A stretch of DNA of 38,110 bases from the NCBI GenBank assembly GCA_018606725.1, contig JAGYID010000015.1, forward strand, positions 1 through 38,110. The letters are read 5' to 3'. A model generated the notes under the pieces. That model did not search any database, was not told the DNA's origin, and was given only the letters and a program-made list of their open reading frames with translations. Source of the DNA: Acidobacteriota bacterium. Lineage in GTDB: Bacteria; Acidobacteriota; Polarisedimenticolia; Gp22-AA2. Shown here piece after piece: positions 14,287-26,116 of this stretch (the stretch's first letter is position 1; every line of letters begins with the position of its first letter). The translations under genes and the position numbers were made by a program.

Positions 14287-14315
14287 TTGACTTGAGTCAG
14301 TGACGACCCTAGATT
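14287..14315 (+). promoter_or_regulatory. Sigma-70-type promoter of minor-pilin operon B
   Basis: TTGACT (14287-14292), 17-nt spacer, TAGATT (14310-14315), 24 nt before the ATG at 14340. The -35 overlaps an imperfect inverted repeat (TGACT-TG-AGTCA, 14288-14299) that could be an operator. No -24/-12 element is present, in contrast with operon A. Confidence 0.6.
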
Positions 14316-14339
14316 TCATCGACGATCGGAGCGCTCTCG

Positions 14340-19377: not shown

Positions 19378-21573
19378 GTGTCCTTCATTCTCGGCCTGCT
19401 CGTCGCGATGGTCGGCGCCGCAATCGGCCTCGCCGCGGCCCGCCTCTTCGTCACCGTCCGGCCGGCGGAGCGCGACGCGGCGCCGGCGGCGGCGATCGGG
19501 CTGGCCGGGGCGATCGGTTTCCTTCTCCTGTTCCAGAATGTCCTGGTCCACGACGCGCTCTGGTATTACGGCTACCTGCGCTCGGCGATCGTGCAGGGCG
19601 ATCTCGATCTCTATGATGAATTCGTCCTGCGCAATCCCCACGGCATGTACCTGCCGCCGCCGGAGGCGCCGCTGTTCCACCTCGGCACGTCGATCCTGCA
19701 GGCGCCTCTGGCGCTCCTGGTCCGGCCGCTCGCCCTGCTCCTGGGACGCGCCGGGATCGTCCCCGGCGGTGACGGCTACGGCCCCCTGGAGACGTTCGCC
19801 GCGGCCTTCGCGTCGATGCTGCTGGCGATCGGTGGCATCGCCCTGACCCACCGCCTGGCGTGCCGCGTCACCACCGCCGGCGCCTCCGCCGTGGCGCAGG
19901 TGACGCTGCTGTTCGCCAGCCCGCTCGCCTTCTTCGCCTTCGTCTGGCCCGGGTACCCGCACCCGGCCACCGTCTTCCTCGCCGCGCTGTTCCTGCTGCT
20001 GTGGTCGGTGGAGGGGGAGCGGCGACCGTTCCTGCTGGGGCTCATCGGCGGCGCCCTGGCGCTGGTGCATCCGCAAGATATCGTCTACCTGGCGCTGCCG
20101 GCGCTCGATGCGATCAATGACGCCACGGTGCGCGCGCGCGGGGGCGGCGGCCGGGCGGCGCTGGGGTCTCTTCTGCGGTCGGGAGCCCGCCTCGCCGCCG
20201 GCGCGCTGCTGGGATTCGCGCCCCAGCTGGCCGCCTGGCGGGCGACCTCCGGCCGATTTCTGCCGCACGTGTACGGCGAGATCGGTGATCCGTTCCGCTG
20301 GGGGCAACCGGCCTTCGTCGAGGTGCTGCTCTCCGCTTACAACGGCCTGCTCACCTGGACGCCGCTCTGCGGCCTGGCGCTCGCCGGGTTGTTCCTGCTC
20401 CGTCGCGGGCAGGCACGGCTGTTCCGCGGTCTGGCGATCGTTTTCGCGCTCGAGTGGTGGGCGATCGCCTCGTATGGCTACTGGTGGGGCGGCGCCTCGT
20501 TCGGGGCGCGCTACTTTCTGAGCGCCTGGCCGGTCCTCGGCGTCGGGCTCGCCGCCGCCGCCGGGTGGCTGCAGCGCCGGATCGGCCTGCGCGCCGCCGG
20601 CGTCCTGGCGGCGCCGTTCGTCTACTGGAATCTCCTCCTCATGGCGCAGTTCCGGCTCGAATGGATCCCCCACAACCATCCTCCCGACCTGGGCGAAGTG
20701 CTGCGACGGCAGCTGCTCGACGCGCCGCGCGCGCTGATCAGCGGTCTGTGCGGGCCGTTCCGCTGGAACCGCGTATCGTTCCTGGAGAACCTGCGCGCCG
20801 CGGCCCAGTCGGGCGACGGGTGGCGCGCCGTTGGCACGTTGTGTCTGTTCGGCACGCTGGCGCTCGTGATCATTCTCTGGGCCATGGCGCTGGCGGGTGT
20901 TGCGCCCGCCGGTGCCGCGGTGGCGCACGGCTTCGTCGCCCGCTTGCGAGTGGCGGCAGCCCGGAATGCGACCCTGGCGGCGGCGACGGCAGCGGTGGTG
21001 GCAACGATCGCCATCCTGTCCGTGGCGCATGGTCTCGGAAGCGAGCGGGTGATCCGGGCCGCCGGCTCGCTGCCGCTCCACCTGCCTTCCAGCCGGGTCG
21101 CGACGCTTCTCGTCGGTCCGCCCGGCGAAGAATCGGGCCCCGCCGGTCCCACCGCGGTGGCGGCGCGCCTCCCGACGCGCCCGCCGGAGGGGTCGCCGAA
21201 GCATCTCGATCTCGTCTCCTTCCTGCACAACGGCGAAACCCGACGCCAGGGCGAGACGGTCGCATGGCTGAGGGCGCTCGGTCCGGGCTGCGGCGACGCG
21301 GCATTCCCGGTGCGCGCCGGGATCGAGACGGCGGAGACCGCCCCCGGGCGGTTCGAAATCGATGGTGCGATGCGGCACGAGATGCCGCCGCCCCTGCAGT
21401 CGTGGTGGCAGGACGACCGATCGGCGCGCCACTACTGGGGGCATGCCTACCTCGCCTCGTGGAGTCTGCCGGCCGCCTGCGAGCCGCAACGCATCGTCCT
21501 CAACGCCGGCAGCGGGGCGGGTGAGCTGGAAGTTCGCAGCCTCGTGGTGGCCGCGGCGGAGCCGCGACCATGA
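19378..21573 (+). CDS. Multi-spanning membrane protein, GT-C glycosyltransferase-like
   Basis: 731 residues with roughly ten to twelve hydrophobic segments over the first 500 residues and a C-terminal extracytoplasmic beta-rich domain after a last membrane segment near residue 540. The first external loop contains 'VLVHDALWYYGYLRSAIVQGD' (21 residues if complete; key features are H-D, W-Y-Y and the following D-L-D-L-Y-D-E-F), placed where GT-C enzymes carry their catalytic acidic residue. Such enzymes move sugars from polyprenyl carriers onto lipids or proteins on the outer face of the membrane. No specific family could be assigned. GTG 19378 follows 'GAGGAGCGC' closely, and the stop overlaps the methyltransferase by 4 nt. 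Donor and acceptor are unknown. Confidence 0.7.
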   Translation: MSFILGLLVAMVGAAIGLAAARLFVTVRPAERDAAPAAAIGLAGAIGFLLLFQNVLVHDALWYYGYLRSAIVQGDLDLYDEFVLRNPHGMYLPPPEAPLFHLGTSILQAPLALLVRPLALLLGRAGIVPGGDGYGPLETFAAAFASMLLAIGGIALTHRLACRVTTAGASAVAQVTLLFASPLAFFAFVWPGYPHPATVFLAALFLLLWSVEGERRPFLLGLIGGALALVHPQDIVYLALPALDAINDATVRARGGGGRAALGSLLRSGARLAAGALLGFAPQLAAWRATSGRFLPHVYGEIGDPFRWGQPAFVEVLLSAYNGLLTWTPLCGLALAGLFLLRRGQARLFRGLAIVFALEWWAIASYGYWWGGASFGARYFLSAWPVLGVGLAAAAGWLQRRIGLRAAGVLAAPFVYWNLLLMAQFRLEWIPHNHPPDLGEVLRRQLLDAPRALISGLCGPFRWNRVSFLENLRAAAQSGDGWRAVGTLCLFGTLALVIILWAMALAGVAPAGAAVAHGFVARLRVAAARNATLAAATAAVVATIAILSVAHGLGSERVIRAAGSLPLHLPSSRVATLLVGPPGEESGPAGPTAVAARLPTRPPEGSPKHLDLVSFLHNGETRRQGETVAWLRALGPGCGDAAFPVRAGIETAETAPGRFEIDGAMRHEMPPPLQSWWQDDRSARHYWGHAYLASWSLPAACEPQRIVLNAGSGAGELEVRSLVVAAAEPRP

Positions 21574-22325
21574 CGCCACGCGCGGCCTCGGCGGGGCTTC
21601 TTTCGATGCCGTCCGCGAGCGCCTCGGAGCGCGTGTCGACGCTCCGCTGGATCGGCCGGTTCGCGCGGGTCTCACCGGCGGCCGGGGCGCACCTGCTCGC
21701 CCGCGTCGCGGGGTTCCGCCACTTCGACCTGCTGGAGGCGGCGTTGCCGCCGGGCGGGCCGATCCTGGACCTCGGCTGCGGCCACGGGCTCCTTGCGATC
21801 CTCGCCGCCGCTCGGGCGCCGGAGCGCCGGGTGCTCGGCATCGACATCCTCGAAGCCCGCGTCGCCGTCGGCCGGGCTGTCGTGGCGCGCTACGGCGGGC
21901 CGGGGAACGTCGCCCTTCGCCGCGGCGACGGCAGGGATCTCCCCGACGGGCCGTTCGCGGCGATTTGTTTCGCGCACACGCTCATGTACCTGCCGCTCCG
22001 GGAGCAGGCGAGCCTGCTGGAGCGCTGCCGGGAGCGGCTGCGGTCGGGCGGGCTCCTGCTGATCGCGGAGCAGGTCGGGGAGCCGGCGTGGAAGGCGAGA
22101 CTGGTGCGCTTTCAAGAAAGCCTGGTGGTGGGGGCCCGGGCGCGCCTGCGCGGCCGGGGCGAGTGGGGGCGGTTCGCCCGGGAGGGCGTTCACCTCTGGA
22201 GCGAGCCGGCCCTTCTGGACCACCTGCGCGGTTTGGGGCTGCACCCGGCGAGCGAGCGGCTGGACCGGTGGAGCCATCTGTCCCACCGATTGATCACCGC
22301 GTCGGCGACCCGGCGGCCGCGATGA
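21570..22325 (+). CDS. Class I SAM-dependent methyltransferase
   Basis: A 251-residue methyltransferase. Motif I is ILDLGCGHGLLAIL (about residues 66-79), motif II is VLGIDILEARV with the ribose-binding Asp, and 'RRGDGRDLPDGPFAAICFAHTLMYLP' followed by 'SGGLLLIAEQ' supply motifs III to V. An N-terminal helical stretch of about 60 residues precedes the fold. It is the last gene of the deacetylase operon, coupled by ATGA to the GT-C-like gene, so methylation of a sugar or lipid in the same pathway is the likeliest role (inference). Its 3' end overlaps the convergent minus-strand gene by 32 nt. Confidence 0.85.
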   Translation: MTPRAASAGLLSMPSASASERVSTLRWIGRFARVSPAAGAHLLARVAGFRHFDLLEAALPPGGPILDLGCGHGLLAILAAARAPERRVLGIDILEARVAVGRAVVARYGGPGNVALRRGDGRDLPDGPFAAICFAHTLMYLPLREQASLLERCRERLRSGGLLLIAEQVGEPAWKARLVRFQESLVVGARARLRGRGEWGRFAREGVHLWSEPALLDHLRGLGLHPASERLDRWSHLSHRLITASATRRPR

Positions 22326-24138
22326 CCTGCCGCGCGGCGTCGTCGAACGGTCCTTCCTCCTCCCAGAGCGACAAGAACCGGCGCATCGCCTCCGCCGCCG
22401 CCACCCGCTCACCGCGCTCGAACAGAATCTTGCCGCGCAGGTAATAGGCGTTGGGATAGGCGGGGTCGATCGCCAGTGCCTCGTCGAGGCGCGCCAGGGC
22501 GTCGTCCGGCCGCCCCGTGCGGGAGCGGGCGTCGGCGAGCGCGTACAAACCCGGAACGTAACGCGGCGCGCGCCGCACGGCGTCCGTCAGGATGGCGAGG
22601 CCCTCGATCGGCCGGCCGAGCCGCACCAGGACGCTGCCGGCGTTGACGCGGCTCTCGAGCTGCAGGGGGGCGAGGCGCAGCGCCTCGAGATATTCGGCGA
22701 GGGCCGCCTCGAGCTTTCCCTCGCGCTCCAGCGCCGCCGCCAGGTTGTTGTGCGCCAGCGCGTAGCTCGGGACCAGCCGGATCGATTCACGGAATTCGTC
22801 CTTGGCCGGGCCGTAGTCGCCGTTGCGATACAGCGCGAGGCCGAGGTTGCACCGGACCATCGCCGAGGCGGGGGAGCTGCGGGCCATGACGGTGAACAAG
22901 GTCCGTTCATCCCGCCAGACGGCGGCGCGTGCCACCGTCAGCCCTGCCAGGATCACGACGATCGCCACGCCGGCGGCCGGCAGCAGACGCGCCGGGCGCC
23001 ATGCCAAGAGCGAACGCCACGGCGACGCCGCCCCGGCGGTGGCGGGGGCAGCTTCATCAAGTTGCGCCGCGATCAGCCGCGCCAGCAGGACCGCAAGGCC
23101 GGCGGTCGGCAGGTAGAGGAAGCGGTCGGCCAGCAGGACGTCGCCGAACGATCCGAAGGCGAACACCGGCAGGAGCGCGATCGGAAACCAGGCGAGCCAG
23201 AACGCATCGCGCCGACTCCAGCGCGCCAGGCGTGCCGCTGTGATCAGCAGGATCGCCGTCATCGCCGCCCCGACCAGGACGCCCGGCGACGCGAAATATC
23301 TGAGCGGGGCGTAAGGGTAATGCGCATCCAGTCCCACGGGCAGCAGGACCAGGGTGAGATAGCGCCCCATCACGAAGAGTGCGGTGCCGAGGAACGCCGC
23401 CGGGCTCAGGTGGTAGAGCGGTTCGGCCCCGCCTCCCAGCACCAGGTGTCGCGCCACGAGGTACAACCCCAGAGCCACGCCATGCGGCCAGGCCGCCATC
23501 GCGGCCCGTCGCAGCCGGCCGGCGGCGGAGAGATCGGCGGCGAGCAGGAGGAGCGGCAGGGTCGCCGCGACCTCCTTGGCGAGCAGCCCGAGGAGGAAGC
23601 AGGCAACCGACAACATGACGGCGCGCGCGGGGGCCGGGGCCGCGGCGACGCGGTCGCGCGCAAGGAACGCCAGGAGCACGAACAGCGTCGCCAGGAGGTC
23701 GGTCCGGCCGGAGATCCAGGCGACCGACTCGACGTGCACCGGGTGGACGGCGAACAGGAGCGAGCCGGCGAGCGCCGCCGCCGGCGAGCCGGTCTCCCGC
23801 CGCGCCAGGGCGAAGACCGCCAGGCAGCAGGCCAGGTGGAGCAGGAGGTTGGTGAGGTGAAATCCGAACGGCCGTAAACCCCACAAGAAATAGTCGAGCG
23901 CATAGGTGGCGGTCGTCAGCGGGCGGAAGAAGGAGCGGAAGCGGTCGTGGCGATCGCCGGTTTGCCAGAAACTGCTGGTCAGGGCCGGGCCGAGAGCGGC
24001 GGGGTCCCTGATCAGCCGATTTTCGACGATCAGCGGCCGGTCATCCCAGACGAAATCGCCGCGCAACGACCAGCCGAAGCAGGCGAGAACCGCAGCGGCC
24101 AGCAGGATGTGGGGGAGGAAGCGGCGCGGCCGGGGCAT
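22294..24138 (-). CDS. TMTC-like membrane protein with C-terminal TPR repeats
   Basis: 614 residues. The N-terminal two thirds is a multi-spanning membrane region with 'GDFVWDDRPLIVENRLI' in the first external loop (Asp32-Asp33), then 'LTNLLLHLACCLAVFALARR' and 'HPVHVESVAWISGRTDLLATLF', the pattern of TMTC-type GT-C proteins, which in animals transfer mannose to protein Ser/Thr. Residues about 428-600 are about five TPRs ('GLALYRNGDYGPAKDEFRES', 'NNLAAALEREGKLEAALAEY', and so on). ATG 24138 is chosen because it begins right before the first hydrophobic helix and 13 nt after the upstream stop; an earlier frame would overlap that gene. Bacterial members are common but uncharacterised. A role in protein O-glycosylation, perhaps of pilins, is an inference. 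Confidence 0.8.
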   Translation of the reverse strand: MPRPRRFLPHILLAAAVLACFGWSLRGDFVWDDRPLIVENRLIRDPAALGPALTSSFWQTGDRHDRFRSFFRPLTTATYALDYFLWGLRPFGFHLTNLLLHLACCLAVFALARRETGSPAAALAGSLLFAVHPVHVESVAWISGRTDLLATLFVLLAFLARDRVAAAPAPARAVMLSVACFLLGLLAKEVAATLPLLLLAADLSAAGRLRRAAMAAWPHGVALGLYLVARHLVLGGGAEPLYHLSPAAFLGTALFVMGRYLTLVLLPVGLDAHYPYAPLRYFASPGVLVGAAMTAILLITAARLARWSRRDAFWLAWFPIALLPVFAFGSFGDVLLADRFLYLPTAGLAVLLARLIAAQLDEAAPATAGAASPWRSLLAWRPARLLPAAGVAIVVILAGLTVARAAVWRDERTLFTVMARSSPASAMVRCNLGLALYRNGDYGPAKDEFRESIRLVPSYALAHNNLAAALEREGKLEAALAEYLEALRLAPLQLESRVNAGSVLVRLGRPIEGLAILTDAVRRAPRYVPGLYALADARSRTGRPDDALARLDEALAIDPAYPNAYYLRGKILFERGERVAAAEAMRRFLSLWEEEGPFDDAARQVIAAAGSPTR

Positions 24139-24151
24139 CCCCGGGGCGCTC

Positions 24152-24712
24152 TCAGGCGCGGTCGTCGCCAGCGTCGGCGGCGACCTCTTCGGCCACCGCG
24201 TCGACCCGGTAGAGCTCCTGGGCCGACAGGATGAAGTGGCGGCTGACCGCGACGAACGGCGTGGCAAAGTCGAGCGCGCCGCCGCGAACGGTGGCTGACA
24301 CCAGCGCCATGAAGGTTTGCGCCAGGTTGTTCAGGCGGAGCAAGGAGTTGCCGCCCGGCCCGGTATGCACGAACCCCTCCACCGAATAGGCACCGACGCG
24401 CAGCCGCACGGCGGCGCGGCCGTAGTTGCGGATTTCGGGCTCCTCGGTCGCCTTGTCGAGCGCGATCCCGAGATCGGGGATCTCCAGCGCCAGCTGGATC
24501 GCCGAGCGGTTCACCGCGATCGGCGCGTCATCGACCGGGCCGGCACCGGACACCACGACGGGCGAAGAGAGCGTCATGAAAGGTTTGCTGTTCTGGTTCA
24601 GCTCGTCGAGGGTGCGCGCTCCGAGGCCGATGTTCAGCAGGCCGTCGAGGATCAGATCCTGGGTGATGATGCGGATCGGCCTGACGGCCCGGTTCTCGTA
24701 AACATTCGACAC
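24152..24712 (-). CDS. Unrecognised protein with an internal duplication
   Basis: A 186-residue soluble protein that I do not recognise. It contains two copies of a beta-rich unit: residues about 22-53 (ILDGLLNIGLGARTLDELN then FMTLSSPVV) and about 109-142 (YSVEGFVHTGPGGNSLLRLN then FMALVSATV). They share G, G, L-x-x-L-N, F-M-x-L and a final V, and each is followed by a strand of form (I/F)-x-A-V-(N/S)-R. No signal peptide, membrane segment or catalytic motif is seen. GTG 24712 has GGAGGAG six to seven bases upstream. It is the first gene of a minus-strand pair with the TMTC-like gene and is read from one side of a bidirectional promoter. Confidence 0.75.
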   Translation of the reverse strand: MSNVYENRAVRPIRIITQDLILDGLLNIGLGARTLDELNQNSKPFMTLSSPVVVSGAGPVDDAPIAVNRSAIQLALEIPDLGIALDKATEEPEIRNYGRAAVRLRVGAYSVEGFVHTGPGGNSLLRLNNLAQTFMALVSATVRGGALDFATPFVAVSRHFILSAQELYRVDAVAEEVAADAGDDRA

Positions 24713-24745
24713 GCGGTCTCCTCCGGCGCGGACCGGATCACAGAT

Positions 24746-24785
24746 TTGACAGGAGTAACTTAGGGCCCTAGATTCCCGACGTCAA
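24746..24785. promoter_or_regulatory. Symmetric, interlocked divergent promoter pair
   Basis: Plus strand: TTGACA (24746-24751), 17 nt, TAGATT (24769-24774), reading toward 24833. Minus strand: TTGACG (24785-24780), 17 nt, TAAGTT (24762-24757), reading toward 24712. Each -10 lies within the other's spacer, and TTGAC/GTCAA are exactly symmetric about the palindrome TAGGGCCCTA (24761-24770), so only one polymerase could be bound at a time. Confidence 0.75.
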
Positions 24786-24832
24786 CTCCGCGCCGGTCCG
24801 TCCCGGGAGGCCGCCGGCCCGACGAGGTGTCG

Positions 24833-26092
24833 ATGCGGTTCCGCTGCAAGCAGTGCCGGGCCCTGACCCAGGTACAGATCCCCGCCTCCGTCGCCTCCTC
24901 GTTCGTGGCGTCCTGCTCGGGTTGCGGCCGCGGCTACCGCTTCGCAGTCGACCGGCGGCACGGCGCCACCGACCAGGAGCGCTACCGGCGCGCCAAGGAG
25001 TTCGCCGAGGTGAACGGGATCGACCTGGCGGGAGCGTACTCGGTCCTCGAAGGGGTCATGACCCTGGAAGAGGCACGGGGCCTCGCCCGGGTGATCCCGC
25101 AGAGTCCATCAGCGGGACTGGAATCGCCTGCCGCGACGACAGCGGTTGCGAAATTGCCGGCCGCGACCGCGACGCCACCCGCGAACCTGCCGGCCGCGCC
25201 GCGCGCAGTGGCCGGCCCCGCGGCCGCAGATCGGTCGCGCGCCGCTGCCGGAATTCAGGCCTCCGCCCCCACTCGTGTCGCCGTCGCTTCGGGTTCGGCC
25301 TCCGGACCGCGCTCCGGCAGAGGTCCGGGGCTCGCGGAGGCGGAGGTCCCGTACGACCCGGCCTTTTCCGAGGCGGTGCGGGACGGCTGCCTGAGCATCC
25401 AGCAGGCGGTCGAGCGCGGCGACCGGCGCGCACTCGCGGCCCGCCTCGCGCAGCGGCACCGCCTGTCGATGAACCTGGCCTGCAAGGTGGCCGACAACCG
25501 CATCACCATCCATCAGGCGCTGCAGCAGAAGGCCGCCATCGAGAGCCGCGAGCCGCCGCGACCGCAGACGTCGATCTCGCACGGGGTCTGGAATTTCATG
25601 ATCACCAGCATCGGGCTGATGGTGGCGTCCGCCTTCGCGTTCCGGGCGTATCAGGAGTGGGAGGGATACTTCGCGCAGCGCGGCATGCTGTCGCTTGGCC
25701 CGCGCATGGCGAACGCCGCCGTGCGGCCGGTGGCCCGCCCTGCCCCCGCGCCGCCAGTCCCCCAGCCACCTCCGCCCCTGACGGTGCCGAAGACCGACGC
25801 CACCGGCCAGCTCGTGGAGGTGGTCGGCCCCGACCCGAAGAGCGTCCTGATCGCCTTCTGCAGCACCGGCCGGCAGGGCGGGCTTCGGGAGCCGATGGAC
25901 GTCGTCACGGGGGTCCCGCCGAATGCGGCGCTCCGTTTCGGGTTGTTCCGGCACCTTGATCAACCGGGGATGGCCGTCCGGGCGATCCGGATCCGGCGCG
26001 ACGCGAACAGCGGTCGCTGGGTGTCCGGCGATGGCCGCAACCCGATCATGACCGAGCGGGCGCCGGGTGCCGTTTCACCATCCGAACCTTGA
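24833..26092 (+). CDS. Zinc-ribbon protein with membrane segment and short helical repeats, unknown function
   Basis: A 419-residue protein that I do not recognise. The N-terminus is a zinc ribbon (C5, C8, C28, C31). Residues about 85-175 are Ala/Pro-rich linker, one hydrophobic segment lies near 257-275 (FMITSIGLMVASAFAF), then a Pro-rich linker and a C-terminal domain of about 90 residues ('LVEVVGPDPKSVLIAFCSTG'). Three copies of a short helix-turn unit of form V-x-(D/E)-(G/N)-x-(L/I/M)-(T/S)-(I/L)-x-x-A occur near residues 71, 183 and 220, the first and third preceded by a matching helix. ATG 24833 has CGAGG five bases upstream; GTG 24827 is the alternative. Expressed from the rightward half of the bidirectional promoter. 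Orientation suggests a cytoplasmic ribbon and an external C-terminus. Confidence 0.7.
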   Translation: MRFRCKQCRALTQVQIPASVASSFVASCSGCGRGYRFAVDRRHGATDQERYRRAKEFAEVNGIDLAGAYSVLEGVMTLEEARGLARVIPQSPSAGLESPAATTAVAKLPAATATPPANLPAAPRAVAGPAAADRSRAAAGIQASAPTRVAVASGSASGPRSGRGPGLAEAEVPYDPAFSEAVRDGCLSIQQAVERGDRRALAARLAQRHRLSMNLACKVADNRITIHQALQQKAAIESREPPRPQTSISHGVWNFMITSIGLMVASAFAFRAYQEWEGYFAQRGMLSLGPRMANAAVRPVARPAPAPPVPQPPPPLTVPKTDATGQLVEVVGPDPKSVLIAFCSTGRQGGLREPMDVVTGVPPNAALRFGLFRHLDQPGMAVRAIRIRRDANSGRWVSGDGRNPIMTERAPGAVSPSEP

Positions 26093-26116
26093 CAATACCC
26101 CCGCCTCTGCTATAGT
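26089..26116 (+). promoter_or_regulatory. Sigma-70-type promoter of the COG2403-arcC-argF operon
   Basis: TTGACA (26089-26094), 16 nt, TATAGT (26111-26116), overlapping the end of the preceding gene. A leader of about 87 nt follows before ATG 26210. Confidence 0.7.

Follow-up and report, generated by a model that had tools for sequence, protein, structure and literature searches.

RESULTS

Two candidate promoters interlock between divergent genes

Can one short stretch of intergenic DNA serve as a promoter in both directions, and what would this mean for the genes on either side? The question is raised by a 40-nt element (TTGACAGGAGTAACTTAGGGCCCTAGATTCCCGACGTCAA on the + strand, positions 24746 to 24785) in a 38,110-nucleotide stretch of a soil acidobacterial genome (contig JAGYID010000015.1; here, the window). 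On the + strand, the rightward candidate promoter has the -35 hexamer TTGACA (24746 to 24751) and the -10 hexamer TAGATT (24769 to 24774). On the - strand, the leftward candidate has TTGACG (24785 to 24780; CGTCAA on the + strand) and TAAGTT (24762 to 24757; AACTTA on the + strand). Direct reading of the sequence confirmed what the sequence-only reading had described: both spacers are 17 nt long, each -10 lies inside the spacer of the opposite promoter, and TTGAC (24746 to 24750) and GTCAA (24781 to 24785) are exact mirror images around TAGGGCCCTA (24761 to 24770), with the axis at 24765.5. This central sequence occurs once in the 3.7-Mb genome. The self-complementary hexamer GGGCCC (24763 to 24768) sits exactly between the two -10s, at positions -18 to -13 of both promoters. 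Start sites predicted 7 nt past each -10 would fall at approximately 24781 on the + strand and 24750 on the - strand, giving a start-to-start distance of 31 bp, with the back-to-back -10s separated by 6 bp. In a generic sigma70 scan, the rightward promoter matched the consensus at 10 of 12 positions and was among only three matches in 19 kb, while the leftward promoter was missed because TAAGTT agrees with the Escherichia coli TATAAT at only 3 of 6 positions. No Rfam RNA was found at the 40-nt element.

The element occupies the gap (24713 to 24832) between two genes that both have a Shine-Dalgarno sequence. The leftward gene (24152 to 24712, - strand) encodes a 186-aa DUF6812 (PF20660) protein from a GTG start at 24712, preceded by GGAGGAGA at 24717 to 24724 on the - strand. 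The rightward gene (24833 to 26092, + strand) encodes a 419-aa zinc-ribbon (CxxC..CxxC) protein from an ATG at 24833, preceded by GAGGTG at 24824 to 24829 on the + strand; a GTG at 24827 falls inside this Shine-Dalgarno sequence. The predicted leaders are approximately 38 nt (leftward) and 52 nt (rightward). The zinc-ribbon protein consists of the N-terminal ribbon, a helical part, one predicted long hydrophobic helix (residues 248 to 282), and a C-terminal domain that was confidently folded in the model but had no match in the PDB. Overall, the structure model was poor for the DUF6812 protein (pLDDT 39) and partial for the zinc-ribbon protein (pLDDT 65, pTM 0.31), with no significant fold matches in the PDB. 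Neither protein belonged to a family of DNA-binding regulators in Pfam, NCBIfam, or PHROGs, and neither resembles a transcription factor.

The element is conserved with the gene pair

We compared the locus with those of related genomes. The divergent gene pair was found in four relatives (G001, G004, G005, and G006), with protein identities of 50 to 59%; three of the four are Acidobacteria "gp22" metagenome-assembled genomes in public records. The conservation sample thus comprised five genomes from three genera of one family. In all five, the element lies between the same two genes with zero or one mismatch, and it forms the only alignable intergenic block, TTTGAC-N5-TAACTTAGGGCCCTAGATTC-N4-CGTCAAC. 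Invariant columns accounted for 29 of 40 positions in the element versus 5 of 48 in the flanks, and pairwise identity was 32 to 38 of 40 within the element versus 7 to 17 of 25 just outside. The symmetry was retained as well, with 13 or 14 of 20 dyad pairs matching in each genome, so that a check proposed in the sequence-only reading, conservation of the element and its symmetry in relatives, came out in its favor.

This alignment showed that the -35, -10, and 17-nt spacing predicted for each promoter, together with the GGGCCC at the center, are kept in five genomes amid diverged surroundings. Specifically, TTGAC of the rightward -35 and all of CGTCAA and AACTTA of the leftward promoter were invariant; the rightward -10 is TAAATT in G004. 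Five of the six GGGCCC positions were invariant, with GAGCCC in G006. The N5 and N4 segments, which lie outside any hexamer, varied freely, and extra conservation beyond the hexamers was confined to GGGCCC and single bases at 24756, 24775, and 24780. Retention of both -35s and both -10s against a diverged background points to selection on both directions. Each genome contained a single copy of the element, it was not found elsewhere in 149 relatives, and no regulon sharing the whole 40-mer was detected.

As a control, we used the promoter of a CobW/HypB-like GTPase gene (TTGACA-N16-TATAGT, window 26089 to 26116). Across six genomes, its -35 and extended -10, TCTG(C/T)TATA(G/A)T, were kept while the upstream part of the spacer varied. 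At this locus, purifying selection acting on a promoter thus shows itself in conserved hexamers and not in the spacer, and the element, with its variable N5 and N4 segments, fits the same pattern. The GTPase gene is located downstream of the element and upstream of genes for carbamate kinase and ornithine carbamoyltransferase.

Both halves follow the promoter grammar of the lineage

To describe the promoters of the lineage, we counted TTGAC-Nk-TAnnnT by spacer length. In G005 (1.12 Mb), there were 40 occurrences at spacer 17, 23 at 18, 13 at 16, and 0 to 7 elsewhere; in G000 (0.72 Mb), the corresponding counts were 38, 15, 6, and 0 to 4. With the element itself excluded, TAGATT was the commonest -10 at spacer 17 (6 of 74) and TAAATT was among the next; TAAGTT was rarer, yet present at other promoters of the family. 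When preceded by TTGAC, these three hexamers occurred 15 times at spacer 17 and at most once at any other spacer per genome. The -10s of the lineage are loose (TA[ATG]nnT), and both strands of the element fit TTGAC-N17-TARRTT. Both halves of the element thus obey the lineage's own promoter rules. The earlier description of two "good" promoters stands by this local measure; by E. coli standards it was generous, since the leftward -10 TAAGTT is weak on that scale.

The 1.85-Mb sample contained 135 strict promoters, and this element was the only one with an opposing promoter 60 bp away or less. Across 396 genomes of the phylum, the 31-bp geometry gave 33 matches outside the family with at most one mismatch, versus 6 for the reversed pattern; some of the 33 were clearly not promoters. 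Another candidate for an interlocked element of this geometry, TTGAC..TAACAGA(C/T)TA..GTCAA, was seen in three genomes from two other Acidobacteriota families (G087:C147:16865, G098:C14:22486, and G347:C91:140726). Exact matches to the interlocked pattern were also present in AT-rich sequence from other members of the phylum (G291:C323:1894 and G278:C23:38499).

The two genes are linked beyond their shared intergenic region

In the relatives, the gene pair adjoins a minor pseudopilin cluster that includes a sigma54 response regulator; this neighborhood suggests that the setting is type IV pili or secretion. In the window, the pseudopilin cluster is separated from the DUF6812 gene by genes for a membrane protein, a methyltransferase, and a TMTC/TPR-like protein (19378 to 24138). 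For the methyltransferase and TMTC genes, the locus gave no match in any of the four relatives. The sequence-only reading had placed the TMTC-like gene in the coupled unit, and this part of it fails: of the five genomes, this one alone has the TMTC-like gene next to that for DUF6812, so that conserved coupling concerns the DUF6812 and zinc-ribbon genes alone.

Homologs of DUF6812 are sparse in the class. In G034 (L049, 6346 to 8108), DUF6812 and zinc-ribbon homologs are adjacent but convergent, which indicates that linkage of the genes is independent of a shared promoter. This genome also carries many more zinc-ribbon paralogs (16 to 17 matching stretches). In G003 (L048, 8345 to 8783), a deletion fused the N-terminal part of a GspH/FimT-like pseudopilin (residues 1 to 84) to the C-terminal part of the zinc-ribbon protein. 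The deletion took out the DUF6812 gene and the bidirectional element, and the hybrid gene retains the pseudopilin promoter. A half-element at this locus, TTTGAC..AGGGCCCTAAGTTC (L048, 8345), was considered as a copy of the element whose leftward half had decayed; this reading was rejected, as the site is the ortholog of the pseudopilin promoter. In other families of the class, promoter-like sites of a similar kind, each directed one way, are found separately at homologs of DUF6812 (G034, G021, and G038) and of the zinc-ribbon protein (G015 and G038), for example TTGAC..GGGAACCTAAATT and TTGAC..GAGGACCCTAGATT.

GGGCCC resembles a sequence found in one-way promoters

We asked whether the central hexamer has counterparts at promoters that work in one direction. 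GGnnCC at -18 to -13 was present in 8 of 131 other strict promoters, versus none in a control of the same size taken seven bases farther upstream and approximately 1.8 predicted from composition, an enrichment that is exploratory given the small numbers and the several patterns tried before it was found. The promoters with GGnnCC in this register include those of mreB (several genomes) and a PAS-domain kinase gene (two genomes), whose spacers are otherwise different. Among promoters with a TARRTT -10 (n = 14), G at -18/-17 and C at -15/-14 were commoner than in the rest. Furthermore, the one-way sites at the class level show GGGAACC, GGACCC, GGGACC, or related sequences at that position, and of the GG[AG][AC]CC variants present at these genes, GGGCCC alone is self-complementary. 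The idea that GGGCCC is a universal promoter motif was rejected (2 of 74 exact at spacer 17), and the hexamer was retained as a minor recurrent sub-element. The recurrences of GGnnCC just upstream of the -10 at unrelated promoters (mreB and the PAS-domain kinase gene) were seen in L062, L073, L075, L083, and the window (14288 to 14316), and the pseudopilin promoters have a related (G/C)GACCC; this may be a spacer element specific to the lineage.

DISCUSSION

The element probably constitutes a conserved, interlocked pair of sigma70-type promoters that fire in opposite directions, driving the zinc-ribbon membrane-protein gene to the right and the DUF6812 gene to the left. With footprints of about -40 to +20, polymerase would cover 24741 to 24801 on the + strand and 24730 to 24790 on the - strand. 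Each predicted start site would fall in the opposite -35 and each -10 in the opposite spacer, so the two footprints would coincide almost completely. One holoenzyme would thus exclude the other, and both genes would share one polymerase-loading site. That overlapping promoters admit only one polymerase is established (PMC4207663), and steric exclusion between the two directions, which had been proposed earlier for this DNA, follows soundly from the overlapping core elements.

Could the leftward half, or even the whole element, be something else? We consider it very unlikely that only the rightward promoter works for a gene and that the leftward half is a by-product of symmetry yielding a low-level divergent transcript. 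Symmetric -10s do commonly fire both ways, often producing noncoding antisense RNA (PMC10268837), and the leftward -10 is the weaker of the two. However, neither the leftward GTCAA nor any base of the leftward -10 varied among the five genomes, and a by-product would not have kept its -35 perfect at the 17-nt distance. In addition, a conserved gene preceded by a Shine-Dalgarno sequence begins 38 nt past the predicted leftward start, with equivalents in each relative. Far less probable still is a chance inverted repeat or an element other than a promoter. Patterns of the same symmetric geometry do turn up sporadically in the phylum, but here the element was present in each genome with the divergent genes, the hexamers and spacers of both halves fit the genome-wide grammar, and no other interlocked pair was seen among the 135 strict promoters. 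On these sequence comparisons, the element is not a chance arrangement.

If the promoters are interlocked, their output could take several forms. The sequence-only reading had proposed a see-saw. In a true switch of this kind, expression of the two genes would be anticorrelated, owing to a regulator or to unequal strength. The geometry allows it, and the conjugation switch of pLS20, Pc/Pr, is built from overlapping, divergent, unequal promoters and a regulator (PMC4207663). Yet there is no regulator gene within the pair, and the two behave as companions: they are kept together, stand side by side in another orientation in G034, and were lost together by one deletion in G003. Opposite expression of such genes makes little sense, and we regard a true see-saw as improbable. 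Because the two are companion genes, the likely outcome is instead a fixed, competition-set ratio of two functionally linked genes, unless a regulator biases one side. Exclusive occupancy per event does not alone give anticorrelated output; expression depends on loading rates, and unless the loading of polymerase is limiting, exclusion could operate at each event and still yield no coupling that could be measured.

The central palindrome admits two readings. The sequence-only reading had suggested an operator controlling both genes, which we consider rather unlikely. In such a model, the 18-bp imperfect palindrome AAYYTAGGGCCCTARRTT would be the site of a dimeric regulator over both -10s that switches both genes together, as in many divergent tet-type control regions. 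In Tn10 tetA/tetR, palindromic sequence lies between and over the core elements of divergent promoters, and one of the two gene products itself binds the tet operators; a regulator of that sort is not apparent for the element. The constraint on GGGCCC beyond sigma contacts, the placement of the palindrome center exactly between the -10s, and the single exact copy, as expected of a locus-specific operator, favor this model. Against it, neither flanking protein matches a known family of DNA-binding regulators, the palindrome is broken in G006, the two -10s account for most of the dyad outside GGGCCC, and GGnnCC stands in the same register at unrelated one-way promoters, including those of mreB and the PAS-domain kinase gene. 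The earlier suggestion therefore holds insofar as the hexamer is constrained, and a promoter sub-element explains that constraint at least as well. Instead of acting as a dedicated operator, GGGCCC may thus represent a shared, palindromic sub-element of promoters. We suspect, with some reservation, that GGnnCC just upstream of the -10 is a directional spacer element of this sort: in its self-complementary form GGGCCC, one hexamer could serve both directions, and sharing it would fix the geometry and lend the region its operator-like look. It is a possible but speculative extension that, in this lineage, GGnnCC at -18 to -13 genuinely determines promoter activity and that GGGCCC has been selected to serve two opposed promoters, hard-wiring a fixed ratio of companion genes without a regulator.

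How does the element compare with known systems? In the accounts given in PMC10268837 and PMC12340889, the bidirectional promoters with symmetric -10s described by Warman et al. (2021) resemble this element in that one short region binds polymerase either way, with symmetry underlying divergence. In those accounts, the -10s coincide, starts are usually 18 bp apart, and the partner transcript is often noncoding. This is the commonest class in the description in PMC10268837, where other spacings are acknowledged. In contrast, the element described here has distinct -10s 6 bp apart, predicted starts approximately 31 bp apart, two strong -35s, and conserved genes on both sides; with nonoverlapping -10s and a predicted distance of 31 bp, it falls outside the 18-bp class, in which -7 and -11 are reciprocally paired. 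Like pLS20 Pc/Pr (PMC4207663), it overlays two sigma70-type promoters of opposite direction on shared DNA, with room for one polymerase only. However, the pLS20 promoters are unequal and are controlled by a dedicated tetrameric regulator and DNA looping, whereas here the promoters are nearly symmetric and neither gene encodes a regulator. With a lineage-spaced -35 and -10 on each strand, colliding cores, and selection in both directions, the element is a case of the already known overlapping divergent promoters, different in geometry rather than new in kind.

Bidirectional promoters are often reported with noncoding antisense RNA on one side. The element offers an evolutionarily tested, clean example of divergent promoters that interlock and that would each drive a conserved gene. 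Its 6-bp/31-bp geometry and palindromic spacer hexamer would permit a direct test of whether polymerase competition sets the ratio of two genes. Furthermore, the analysis provides a first picture of sigma70 promoters for this uncultured family of Acidobacteriota.
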